This document shows, in pieces, positions 4,049 through 9,811 of a stretch of 33,643 nucleotides of DNA. The position numbers were made by a program, and so were the translations under genes. The notes below the pieces were generated by a model. The model searched no databases, was not told the DNA's origin, and saw only the letters and a list, made by a program, of their open reading frames with translations. The first letter of the stretch is position 1; each line of letters begins with the position of its first letter. Origin of the DNA: Robiginitomaculum sp. (lineage in GTDB: Bacteria; Pseudomonadota; Alphaproteobacteria; Caulobacterales; Maricaulaceae); NCBI GenBank assembly GCA_016763185.1, contig JAESUG010000090.1:1-33643 (forward strand), read 5' to 3'.

Positions 4049-7000
4049 TTAGTGAACCTTCTCAATTTCGGATACAGACTGAATACCGGGAACACCACGC
4101 AAAATAGATTGGGCCATTGAGCCAATAGGCCAACCGTCTCCAAGGTCAATCTCGACACGTCGACCATCGTTTAGAGAGGTAACAATTCGAAGTTTTCCTA
4201 AGTTTTTCGTATCTTTCTGTGGTAAGGCCCGTAAATAGTCATTAATTTCTTGTGCTGGCTTTGCATCGCGTAACTGCAAAATTAAGCCTTCTACTCGAAC
4301 AGCGGCAATATTGTCTAACGTATCCACATCTTCCAAAAACATTCGAATATCACCGGAGCGGTTTTCTGCTTTTACGCGCAATACTCGAATTTGGCCGGTT
4401 TCTAAGGCATCACGGTGTTGTGCCAACACCTCTGCACTCGCTAAAACCTCGAACTCGCCCTCTGGATCGGAAAAAGAAACATAGGCAAAACGTTTCCCAT
4501 TTCGGGTTGAAACTCGCTCTTGCCGTTTTCGAACGACACCGATCATTCGAAAAATGCTCCCGTCTTGATTGGCCCTTTCCAATACTTGACCGCTAAATAC
4601 GATATTCAATTTCTCAATGCGCTCCAACTGACCATCCAATGGGTGCCCAGATAGATAAAACCCAATGCTGGCGAGTTCTTGGTCCATGCTTTCTTCGTTC
4701 GACCAAGGTTCCAATTGTGGCAAAGGCGGTCTACCAAAATTCTTGCCCTCATCACCAAAAAGACTATCTTGGTTACTTACTTTGCTTTGTGCCGCAGAAA
4801 TACTTGCGGCCTGCATCAGCGATGAAGCCTCCAACGCATTGCGGCAATTTGGCTCGATGTCGCGAAAAGCCCCAGCTTTTGCCAGATTTTCAATGGCGCG
4901 TTTATTGATGAAGCTTGGGTCAACTCGATCGGCAAAATCATATAAATTTTTAAATTTTCCACCAGATTCGCGCACCTGCACCAAATGTTCCATGGCTTGC
5001 CCGCCAACATTTCTAATGGCGCCTAAGGCATAAAGGATACGCCCATCAGCAACAGAAAAATCGGCCATGCTTGAGTTTACATTCGGTGGTATTACCTCAA
5101 TTTTTAAAAACTTAGCTTCTTGAGCAAACAAGCTAAGTTTATCTGTATTGGCCATATCAAGGCTCATCGAAGCGGCCAAAAACTCCACTGGATAATGGGT
5201 TTTCAACCAAGCCGTTTGATAGGCAATCAGCGCATATGCTGCAGAGTGCGATTTGTTAAAGCCATACCCTGCAAATTTATCAACAATATCAAAAATTTCG
5301 TCGGCCCGTTTGGGGTTGACCCCATTTTTCACCGCACCATCAACAAATCTGGTGCGTTGGGCTTTCATTTCAGCTTTGATTTTTTTGCCCATTGCCCGGC
5401 GTAATAAATCAGCTTCGCCAAGCGAATAACCAGACAGAACTTGGGCAATTTTCATGACCTGTTCTTGGTAGATAATTACCCCATAGGTATCGGCAACCAA
5501 GGGGGTAATCATTTCATGCAGGTGAATGGGTTTTTTGCGGCCAAATTTACAGGCGACATAGTCAGGAATATTATCCATTGGACCGGGCCGATACAGCGCA
5601 ATGATCGCAATAATGTCCTCAAAACAATCCGGACCGGCTTTACGTAAAGTATCGCGCATGCCCGCGCTCTCCAATTGAAACACCCCAACGGTATCCGCAG
5701 CACGCAACATGGCGTAGGTAGCTTCGTCATCCAGCGGTAAAGCCTCTACATCCAACTCCACACCATTTTTTCGCAAAAACCCGACCGTCCGGTCGATTAC
5801 GGTTAATGTTTTTAATCCCAGAAAATCAAACTTTACCAAGCCTGCCTTTTCAACCCATTTCATGTTAAATTGGGTCGCTGGAATATCTGAACGATGATCC
5901 AAATAAAGCGGGGTCAACTCCACCAAAGGCCGATCGCCAATAACAACACCGGCGGCATGGGTTGAGGCATTTCGGATTAACCCCTCAAGCTGATTGGCGG
6001 TGTGCAACAATGTTGCGACATCTTCATCTTCATCACGAGCTTGTTGTAATCCTGGTTCTTGTTGGATGGCTTGGGTAAGTGATACCGGGTCGGCCGGGTT
6101 ATTGGGTACCATTTTAGCAAGACGGTCAACTTGCCCCAAGGGCAATTGCATCACCCGGCCAACATCACGCAACGCAGCGCGTGGCTGTAACGTACCAAAG
6201 GTAATGATTTGCGCGACCCGGTCATAGCCGTATTTTTGTTTCACGTATTCGATTACCTCGCCGCGACGTTCTTGACAAAAATCAATATCAAAGTCAGGCA
6301 TCGAAACCCGTTCTGGATTTAAGAACCGCTCAAACAGCAACCCAAATCGAATGGGATCCAACCCGGTAATGGTCAACGCCCAAGCAACAACCGAACCAGC
6401 GCCAGAGCCCCTGCCCGGCCCCACGGGTATCCCTTGCTCGTTCGCCCAATGAATGAAATCGGCAACAATTAGGAAATACCCAGGAAACCCCATTTGCTCG
6501 ATCATTTGTAATTCGAACTCTAAGCGCTCCACATAGTCTTGTTTTGGGACCGCCAATTGGGTGTTTTGAAATCGCTTTTGCAAACCCTCACGGGCGCGCA
6601 ATGCTAGGTCTTGGGCTTCGCTTAAGCCTTTTTCACTGGTAAATTTTGGTAAAATTGGATCACGGGTACGCGGTCGATAACTACATCTTCGTGCAATCTC
6701 AATCGTGTTTTCCAACGCCTCCGGCAGATCAGCAAATAAAGTTGCCATCTCATCCGAACGGGTAAAGTAATGCCTCGGCGTTACTTTACGACGCTCGTTC
6801 ACCGATAAATAGGTGCTTTCAGAAATACACAATAACGCATCATGCGCTTGATAATTTTCCGGTTGCTCAAAGAAAGGTTGCTGGGTGGCAACAATGCCAA
6901 CCTCGGCGGCATAAGCCCAGTCAACCAAAACAGTTTCTGCTTTGTGTTCATCGGCTAATCCATGTCGTTGTAGCTCGACATAAAGTCGGTCTCCAAAGCC

Positions 7001-7513
7001 GTCATGAAGCTGTGATAACAAACGCGTAGCATGTTCCACTTGGTCATTGACGATCAGCTTATTCACGCAGCCTTCCGGCCCTCCGGTCAGCGCAATAATA
7101 CCCTCACTCAGCGCTAAAACAGTGGAGATATCGACGCATGGCACGGCTGCCGGGTCTCTTTCCAGCCAAATCGTGCTGGCCAATTGCAATAGATTTAGAT
7201 AGCCCTGCTCGGTACTGGCCAACAGCGCCAAATTACCATCTGGCTCTCGTGGGTTCCCCGTAGAAGTTTTTTCAAGATGGACGGCCAAGGTCAAACCGAT
7301 AATGGGCTGTATGCCGGCTTTGGCCATTACTTCGGAAAATTCCAACGCCCCGAACATATTATTGGTATCGGTAAGGGCGATGGCGGGCATTGCGGCACGA
7401 GCGCAAATATCCCTTAGTTTTTCAATTTGAACTGCGCCTTCAAGAATGGAATAGGCTGAATGGCTTCGTAGGTGAATGAAAGGCTTTGTCGCCGATCTTC
7501 CTTTGTTCGCCAT
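4049..7513 (-). CDS. dnaE: DNA polymerase III subunit alpha
   Basis: 1154 aa; PHP-like N-terminus (FIHLRSHSAYSILEGA), GPGRGSGAGSVVAWALTITGLDPIRFGLLFERFLNPERVSMPDFDIDFCQERRGEVI, HAAGVVIGDRP, QEQVMKIAQVLSGYSLGEADLLRRAMGKK. Confidence 0.98.
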   Translation of the reverse strand: MANKGRSATKPFIHLRSHSAYSILEGAVQIEKLRDICARAAMPAIALTDTNNMFGALEFSEVMAKAGIQPIIGLTLAVHLEKTSTGNPREPDGNLALLASTEQGYLNLLQLASTIWLERDPAAVPCVDISTVLALSEGIIALTGGPEGCVNKLIVNDQVEHATRLLSQLHDGFGDRLYVELQRHGLADEHKAETVLVDWAYAAEVGIVATQQPFFEQPENYQAHDALLCISESTYLSVNERRKVTPRHYFTRSDEMATLFADLPEALENTIEIARRCSYRPRTRDPILPKFTSEKGLSEAQDLALRAREGLQKRFQNTQLAVPKQDYVERLEFELQMIEQMGFPGYFLIVADFIHWANEQGIPVGPGRGSGAGSVVAWALTITGLDPIRFGLLFERFLNPERVSMPDFDIDFCQERRGEVIEYVKQKYGYDRVAQIITFGTLQPRAALRDVGRVMQLPLGQVDRLAKMVPNNPADPVSLTQAIQQEPGLQQARDEDEDVATLLHTANQLEGLIRNASTHAAGVVIGDRPLVELTPLYLDHRSDIPATQFNMKWVEKAGLVKFDFLGLKTLTVIDRTVGFLRKNGVELDVEALPLDDEATYAMLRAADTVGVFQLESAGMRDTLRKAGPDCFEDIIAIIALYRPGPMDNIPDYVACKFGRKKPIHLHEMITPLVADTYGVIIYQEQVMKIAQVLSGYSLGEADLLRRAMGKKIKAEMKAQRTRFVDGAVKNGVNPKRADEIFDIVDKFAGYGFNKSHSAAYALIAYQTAWLKTHYPVEFLAASMSLDMANTDKLSLFAQEAKFLKIEVIPPNVNSSMADFSVADGRILYALGAIRNVGGQAMEHLVQVRESGGKFKNLYDFADRVDPSFINKRAIENLAKAGAFRDIEPNCRNALEASSLMQAASISAAQSKVSNQDSLFGDEGKNFGRPPLPQLEPWSNEESMDQELASIGFYLSGHPLDGQLERIEKLNIVFSGQVLERANQDGSIFRMIGVVRKRQERVSTRNGKRFAYVSFSDPEGEFEVLASAEVLAQHRDALETGQIRVLRVKAENRSGDIRMFLEDVDTLDNIAAVRVEGLILQLRDAKPAQEINDYLRALPQKDTKNLGKLRIVTSLNDGRRVEIDLGDGWPIGSMAQSILRGVPGIQSVSEIEKVH

Positions 7514-7583: not shown

Positions 7584-7676
7584 TCAACCACCCAGAACCA
7601 TTGACCATGCACCAATCATCATAATGAAACCAGCCAAAACCGATAATGCTGCAAGCTCTCTTACTATATCTCTCAT
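7584..7676 (-). CDS. Candidate 30-aa SOS-induced single-pass membrane peptide, SidA-like cell-division inhibitor (not in the ORF track)
   Basis: Minus-strand ORF ATG (7676) to TGA (7584): MRDIVRELAALSVLAGFIMMIGAWSMVLGG. Purine-rich Shine-Dalgarno GGGAGAAAGAAA just upstream of ATG; LexA box and promoter upstream; position immediately 5' of dnaE. Confidence 0.75.
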   Translation of the reverse strand: MRDIVRELAALSVLAGFIMMIGAWSMVLGG

Positions 7677-7706
7677 TTTCTTTCTCCCTATATGTTCACG
7701 AGTTAT

Positions 7707-7721
7707 GTTCGTGATTTGTTC
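7707..7721 (-). promoter_or_regulatory. LexA (SOS) box, alphaproteobacterial GTTC-N7-GTTC type
   Basis: Exact GTTCGTGATTTGTTC on the plus strand (GAACAAATCACGAAC on the minus), directly downstream of the predicted -10 and 30 nt upstream of the small ORF start. Confidence 0.8.
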
Positions 7722-7726
7722 TTATA

Positions 7727-7756
7727 GCTATATTCCCTTTTTGTTCTTATTGTCAA
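7727..7756 (-). promoter_or_regulatory. Predicted sigma70 promoter for the SOS small ORF (and possibly dnaE)
   Basis: Minus-strand TTGACA (plus 7751-7756), 18-nt spacer, TATAGC (plus 7727-7732). Confidence 0.65.
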
Positions 7757-7788
7757 GCCTGTTTTTCATATGACTGCAAAATAACGAG

Positions 7789-8496
7789 CTAAGCTCGGTC
7801 TGAACCTTGTTCGACAGCTAATCCACCGGACATGTGCAACACCCGGTCCATATAGGAAGTTAGCGCCATATTGTGGGTTGCCACCAATGCGGCGACCCCT
7901 TCAATGCGAACCAGATCAAACAAGCTTTGAAACACCGTCGCTGCAGTGTTTGGATCCAAATTCCCGGTTGGCTCGTCCGCCAGTAAAACAGCCGGCTTGT
8001 TCGCCAAAGCACGAGCGATTGCCACCCGTTGCTGTTCGCCGCCAGACAGTTGCGCGGGTTGATGCAAAACCCGGTTGGCCAACCCCATCACATCAAGTAA
8101 CCGCACGGCCTCATAGCGTGCGGTTTTTTGCGCCACGCCTTCGATAAGAAGTGGCATCGCCACATTATCCAGCGCCGAGAACTCTGGAAGCAAATGATGA
8201 AATTGATAAACAAACCCGATCATGTTGCGGCGAATACGGGTGCGCGTTTTGTCGGGCAGGCTGAGGCACTCTTTGCCGCCAAGCCACACTTTTCCCGATT
8301 TTGGTTGTTCCAGTAAACCTGCCGCATGTAGCAGGGTTGATTTACCCGAACCAGATGGCCCCAATAACCCAACAATTTCCCCCGCATGCACATCCAAATT
8401 CACGCCGCGCAACACATGCAAGGTTTCGGCATCAGTGACAAAGCTTTGGGAAAGGCTCTCAATTCGTAAAATAGGATTTTGCGAATAATTATTCAT
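7789..8496 (-). CDS. lolD: Lipoprotein-releasing system ATP-binding protein LolD
   Basis: ABC ATPase: [21 protein letters not shown] (Walker A), [32 protein letters not shown] (signature and Walker B); adjacent to a LolC/E permease. Start taken at MNNYSQNP. Confidence 0.92.
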
Positions 8497-9811
8497 AGCG
8501 CAAAGCCTCAACCGGATCGAGGGTGGAGGCGCGCCAAGACGGGTACAAAGTCACTAAAATCGAAGCGCCAAACCCAAAGGCAGCAATCACCGCAACTTCC
8601 GACCAATCAACGACGGCAGGCAATCTGGACAAGCCATATACGTCTTCATCGAACAGCAATGTACCGGGTGAAAATAACCCAAACACCCATTGTACAAAAT
8701 CTTGAATAGGCTCAATAAACCACGCAAATAATACGCCCAGAATTATGCCAAATAGCGTCCCAAATCCCCCAATTGCCGCGCCAACCATCACAAAAACCCG
8801 CATCATTGCGCCGCGGCTGGCCCCCATTGTGCGTAAAATGGCGATATCTTTACCCTTGTTTTTGACCAGCATCACCAAGCCTGAAATAATATTCAACGCG
8901 GCAATCAACACCACCAGCATTAAAATCAGACGCATCATCGTGCGTTCGATTTGCAATGCGGAGACGAAACTACGGTTTTGATCCAACCAGTCTTCCATAA
9001 ACACCGGTATACCGGCGGCATCGCGCACCAGCCCCTTTAACACCGGCGTATCAAACGGTTTATCTACCCGCAGTTCAATAAAATCGGGTTTGCCCTGTTT
9101 TTTGAAAAATAAATCAGCTTGTGACAACGGCATATAGACAAAGTGCTGATCACGATCGACAGCTCCCATCTTGAATATTGCCCCAACCCGATAGGTTTTT
9201 CGCACAGGCCTGCTGCCAAACGGGGTCATGGTCCCGCCGGAAAAGCTCAAAAAAGTAAGATCATCACCGACTTGCACCCCAAATTTTCGAGCCATTACTG
9301 CACCGATAACCACTTGATCGCCACCATGGCGCCCCACCCCAAATTCGTCCAACGAGCCAGAGGTAATTTTTGAGGTTAACAGATCTAATGATTGGATGGC
9401 TTCGGGTTCAATCCCAAAAACCAACGCCAAATCACCGTCTGAGTTTAACGCAGAAATCGCAGCAGCATTTCCAAAAATCATCGTTCGGGCGCTGTTAACG
9501 CCCGGCACCTGCAACACGCGCTGACGCAAAGGCTCTATTTCTTCAACTTCTAATTGGTTGGAATAAATAAAAATATGGCCACTGGCTCCGGTCATAATCT
9601 CGATGACTTTGGCGGTGTATCCGTTCATCACTGACATCACGACAATCAACACCATGACGGCGAGCATAATCCCGAAAAACGAAATGATGGTAATCAGCGA
9701 AGCGCCACCATCAGAACGCCTAGAGCGCAAATACCGTGTGGCCAATGTCCGTTCAAACAGTGACAACGGCAATGCACCTCGACCCGGATTTTGCACTCGC
9801 TCATTCATCAA
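8489..9811 (-). CDS. lolC: Lipoprotein-releasing ABC transporter permease, LolC/LolE family
   Basis: [48 protein letters not shown]-terminus and C-terminal MacB/FtsX-type TM segments; overlaps lolD. Confidence 0.9.

Follow-up and report, generated by a model that had tools for sequence, protein, structure and literature searches.

SidA is a 29-aa inner-membrane protein that, in Caulobacter, is chiefly responsible for blocking division during the SOS response; it acts through FtsW, and the published model proposes that it holds the FtsW/I/N complex inactive (PMC4211646). DidA, another small damage-induced single-helix division inhibitor of Caulobacter, differs in that it is 71 aa long, SOS-independent (DriD), encoded at another locus and targeted to FtsN (PMC4211646). 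In Gram-positive bacteria, YneA, ChiZ, and SosA are SOS-linked small membrane division inhibitors for which an action on FtsW has been predicted or shown (PMC13396833).

Here, we analyzed a peptide encoded directly upstream of dnaE in a 33,643-nucleotide stretch of Robiginitomaculum sp. DNA (the whole stretch is called the window). The window peptide resembles SidA in size (30 aa vs 29 aa), in having a short charged N-terminus and then one hydrophobic helix, in an RE motif at positions 6-7, and in its LexA box and its place directly upstream of dnaE. It shares with DidA the single helix and, if its predicted induction and inhibitory activity are correct, the behavior of a small damage-induced division inhibitor. 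Compared by description, YneA, ChiZ, and SosA are longer and carry a LysM domain or an extended extracellular part. TisB of E. coli, a LexA-controlled membrane peptide of about 29 aa, is a depolarizing toxin with an RNA antitoxin, and its likeness to the window peptide, again by description, lies in size, LexA box and predicted membrane helix.

The ORF between lolD and dnaE and its homology to SidA

The sidA-like ORF (7584-7676, minus strand) consists of 30 codons and a stop, and was missed by annotation. It codes for the peptide MRDIVRELAALSVLAGFIMMIGAWSMVLGG and starts with ATG, directly preceded by the ribosome-binding site GGGAG (7684-7688, minus strand); a GGAG-like motif is found in most members of the genus. 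The N-terminus contains four charged residues (R2, D3, R6, and E7), and one hydrophobic helix is predicted from the sequence at residues 10-28, with a KD19 value of 2.07 for the window peptide and 2.06 for Caulobacter SidA. The upstream neighbor is lolD (7789-8511, minus strand), and dnaE, coding for DNA polymerase III alpha (4049-7513, minus strand), lies 70 nt downstream; both were confirmed by profiles. These features agree with the initial annotation, which had described an unannotated 30-aa minus-strand ORF between lolD and dnaE, with a good ribosome-binding site and a short charged N-terminus followed by one hydrophobic helix. A terminator-like hairpin at the lolD end (7785-7797, minus strand) sets the sidA unit apart from lolD, and the scan found no terminator-like site between the ORF and dnaE; the ORF is thus apparently transcribed as a unit of its own, which may extend into dnaE.

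The window peptide had no match in Pfam or NCBIfam. In C. vibrioides OR37 (L235), a 29-aa peptide is encoded behind the box GTTCACAAGATGTTC and its gene ends about 19 nt before dnaE. This peptide scored 72.7 bits against the NCBIfam model NF033228 (div_inhib_SidA; cut-off 35), and this match, together with the known 29-aa length, identifies it as SidA. The position of sidA next to dnaE in Caulobacter, which the initial annotation had stated, was thereby confirmed in OR37. Some Caulobacter and Asticcacaulis genomes of the set had no perfect-box unit at dnaE, and a PDB search with SidA returned no match.

In an ungapped alignment, only 9 of 29 positions were identical between the window peptide and OR37 SidA, the common positions including IxRE (4-7), AL (10-11), GF (16-17), and M20. 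Comparison of the window family profile with SidA by hhalign gave 90.5%, which rose to 93.7% with larger profiles (score 28.2), the alignment covering columns 1-21 and running ungapped from residue 1. None of 600 shuffled controls reached this score, neither the 300 with whole columns shuffled (best 17.3) nor the 300 with only the helix shuffled (best 24.9). The confidence of the alignment covers residues 1-21, and the C-terminal half of the window peptide is different (W24 and a VLGG end), the last residues being AWSMVLGG in the window peptide vs SVAQLVA in SidA. Model NF033228 did not match the window peptide at E values up to 1, below its curated cut-off of 35 bits, and the peptide is therefore considered a divergent SidA-type orthologue rather than a member of the NF033228 equivalog family. 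The proposal that the ORF is the SidA equivalent of this lineage is supported by the significant profile-profile homology, the same position upstream of dnaE and the LexA operator. An action of SidA through both FtsW and FtsN had also been assumed; FtsW is indeed the direct target of SidA, whereas FtsN is the target of DidA (PMC4211646).

Conservation, promoter and LexA boxes

A peptide search of relatives found the peptide in 17 of the 18 genomes of the genus, counting its own, and in roughly twelve other genera of the same family. The perfect box GTTC-N7-GTTC was present in all 28 true orthologues, about 20-60 nt before the start, and dnaE directly followed the peptide gene in 25 of them. 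The exceptions were L011, which has lolD and no dnaE in its stretch, and L017 and L018, which have neither. The latter two belong to the same genus and possess peptide and box, yet dnaE and lolD are both absent within about 1.5 kb, so that the peptide gene, or its neighbors, seems to have moved. L028 and L031 were rejected as orthologues, lacking the box and lying away from dnaE, as were most of the weak matches from profile searches, on the same grounds. These counts give a positive answer to the check suggested in the initial annotation, namely whether peptide and box are conserved in relatives. The ORF is 30 codons long in all 17 genus sequences, in which the variable sites by codon position were 20/10/28 of 29, pN/pS was 0.33, and pN was lower than pS in every one of the 136 pairs. 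This substitution pattern indicates that the sidA-like ORF is a real gene under coding selection.

The promoter consists of the -35 hexamer TTGACA (7751-7756, minus strand) and the -10 hexamer TATAGC (7727-7732, minus strand), separated by an 18-nt spacer, and TTGAC does not vary within the genus. The perfect LexA box GAAC-N7-GAAC (7707-7721, no strand; GTTCGTGATTTGTTC) lies close behind the -10 and is conserved in all the orthologues of the first search. Promoter and perfect box were both found as the initial annotation had described them, while a second, imperfect box, GAAC-N7-GAAT (7732-7746, no strand; ATTCCCTTTTTGTTC / GAACAAAAAGGGAAT), had gone unnoticed. This box is located between the -35 and the -10, its last half-site is GAAT, and its final base overlaps the -10. 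A strict promoter scan did not call the TTGACA/TATAGC pair, since TATAGC is without the final T. Three elements keep their register when the genus sequences are aligned, namely TTGAC, GAAC-N7-GAA upstream, and GAAC-N7-GAAC downstream, with the upstream GAAC missing only in L010. A similar tandem arrangement of boxes was seen across the order. An inverted repeat, TCACGAG-TTA-TGTTCGTGA (7696-7714), overlaps the downstream end of the perfect LexA box and was not conserved in the genus alignment.

The LexA protein of the window's genome contains LexA_DNA_bind and Peptidase_S24 domains, and the same type of box precedes its own gene. Perfect boxes are also located before recA and a DinB-like polymerase gene, as well as before RadA-like and ComM/YifB-like genes, which were named partly by eye from the sequence. 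The box pattern was not enriched genome-wide (57 matches vs 125 for the reversed pattern), so single LexA boxes need added support. Similarly, chance would give 0.75 such 15-nt boxes per window, so that a LexA box on its own is weak evidence. The second perfect match in the window, at 4697 inside dnaE, is probably such a chance occurrence.

Proposed mechanism and alternative explanations

Sequence comparison establishes the coding selection, the operator, the genomic position, and the homology to SidA. Taken together, the ORF very probably encodes a divergent SidA orthologue that would be repressed by LexA, induced in the SOS response, and block division at FtsW. The sidA-like gene would be kept off by LexA, which would occupy one or both of the boxes across the promoter. 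Upon DNA damage, RecA would trigger the self-cleavage of LexA and the promoter would fire, and a 30-aa single-helix peptide would then insert and accumulate in the inner membrane. By analogy with Caulobacter, the peptide helix may engage the FtsW/FtsI/FtsN complex, so that division would be arrested and septum closure delayed until repair. The divergent C-terminal halves might, speculatively, reflect contacts that differ between lineages, with a partner that co-evolves. An alignment of the natural variants, about 30 residues long, could reveal which positions of SidA touch FtsW.

An improbable alternative is that the ORF encodes a SidA homolog that is also SOS-induced and membrane-located but for which inhibition of the divisome is not the main role, acting as a TisB-like depolarizing toxin or on another membrane partner. 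Such a role would suit a LexA-controlled, membrane-inserted peptide of the same size class as TisB, and the strong divergence of the C-terminal half between lineages is consistent with it. However, both the sequence homology and the synteny point to SidA, and the conserved trait is a short charged N-terminus with an uncharged helix, not an amphipathic charged helix.

It is still less likely that the ORF is a leader whose main job is to tie the translation or transcription of dnaE to the SOS promoter. In favor of this role, dnaE directly follows the ORF, the scan found no terminator-like site in the interval, and two loci keep a box next to dnaE without the peptide. In these loci, L305 (near 1085) and L308 (near 1378), the box is located 36 and 104 nt before dnaE, respectively, and no SidA-like ORF was found, which suggests that the box is a relic or that the SOS response acts on dnaE directly. 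On the other hand, selection acts on the amino-acid sequence of the peptide and not on its translation alone, and its homolog SidA is a protein with a known function. In addition, the distance to dnaE is variable (12-313 nt), and no dnaE follows the peptide in L017 and L018. A spurious ORF beside a chance LexA-like box, as the expected number of boxes per window might allow, is refuted for practical purposes by the co-occurrence of box and peptide in 28/28 orthologues and by the coding substitution pattern.

Distribution beyond the family and the link to dnaE

An order-wide profile based on sequence only found the peptide in 89 of the 150 genomes, almost always as a single copy, in four families, and a SidA-type peptide was present at the dnaE locus in 4 of the 5 families sampled in the window's order. 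The 25 loci examined from the order-wide search were all located 12-313 nt upstream of dnaE and had LexA boxes, 23 perfect and 2 with one mismatch, although this box test is not fully independent, as some of the loci had fed the order-wide profile. In the fifth family, f2, the order-wide profile found no peptide among the genomes listed. In the f2 genomes checked (L317-L321), lolD and dnaE are only 61-87 nt apart, and the sidA locus has therefore probably been lost there.

Of the 389 alphaproteobacterial genomes sampled, a single one passed the cut-off of NF033228, namely G046, which belongs to the window's own order. Judged by the SidA matches in family f3, this family is probably Caulobacteraceae and the window's family a sister to it within Caulobacterales. 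In genomes outside the order, a screen of 129 regions upstream of dnaE looked for a perfect box and, behind it, an ORF of 24-50 aa with one hydrophobic helix. Nineteen of the 129 passed, in 10 of 74 families, compared with 0.01 expected from dinucleotide shuffles; because the 129 genomes were chosen for the most window-like dnaE, this proportion is not a class-wide frequency. Many of these units share the motif [W/I/F]-x-[K/Q/E]-D-x-x-A-L ahead of a Trp-containing helix, and judged by position and motif the outside-order peptides are likely homologous to SidA. The window profile directly matched family f7 (E values of 2e-5, 6e-4, and 0.05), with all matches at dnaE and with the box. Even when its sequence can hardly be recognized any more, the gene mostly remains before dnaE.

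Our results indicate a far wider distribution of SidA-type peptides than the curated family would suggest. In the open-access papers searched, we found no report of SidA outside Caulobacter and no earlier report of such a wide range beyond the curated family. For bacteria in which no SOS division inhibitor is known, these loci supply candidates that can be taken up directly.

The constant location of the gene ahead of dnaE prompts a question that can be tested, namely whether the SOS response also controls the replicative polymerase. As a tentative and rather doubtful extension, SidA might be an ancient alphaproteobacterial SOS checkpoint peptide that was fixed upstream of dnaE and diverged so fast that it is annotated only in Caulobacteraceae. 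The reason for keeping this place might be that sidA and dnaE are induced together as one SOS unit, which would raise the replicative polymerase while division is stopped.

Two further loci of the window's genome were noted. L188 (C133) codes for a second S24-peptidase protein, whose N-terminal part is unlike LexA and which is of the phage-repressor type. In L265 (C4:5900-5914), a perfect LexA box, GTTCTAGTTTTGTTC, precedes an mraZ-like gene (Pfam MraZ) by about 157 nt. The mraZ gene normally heads the dcw division cluster, and the box before its homolog is a possible SOS input to division genes.
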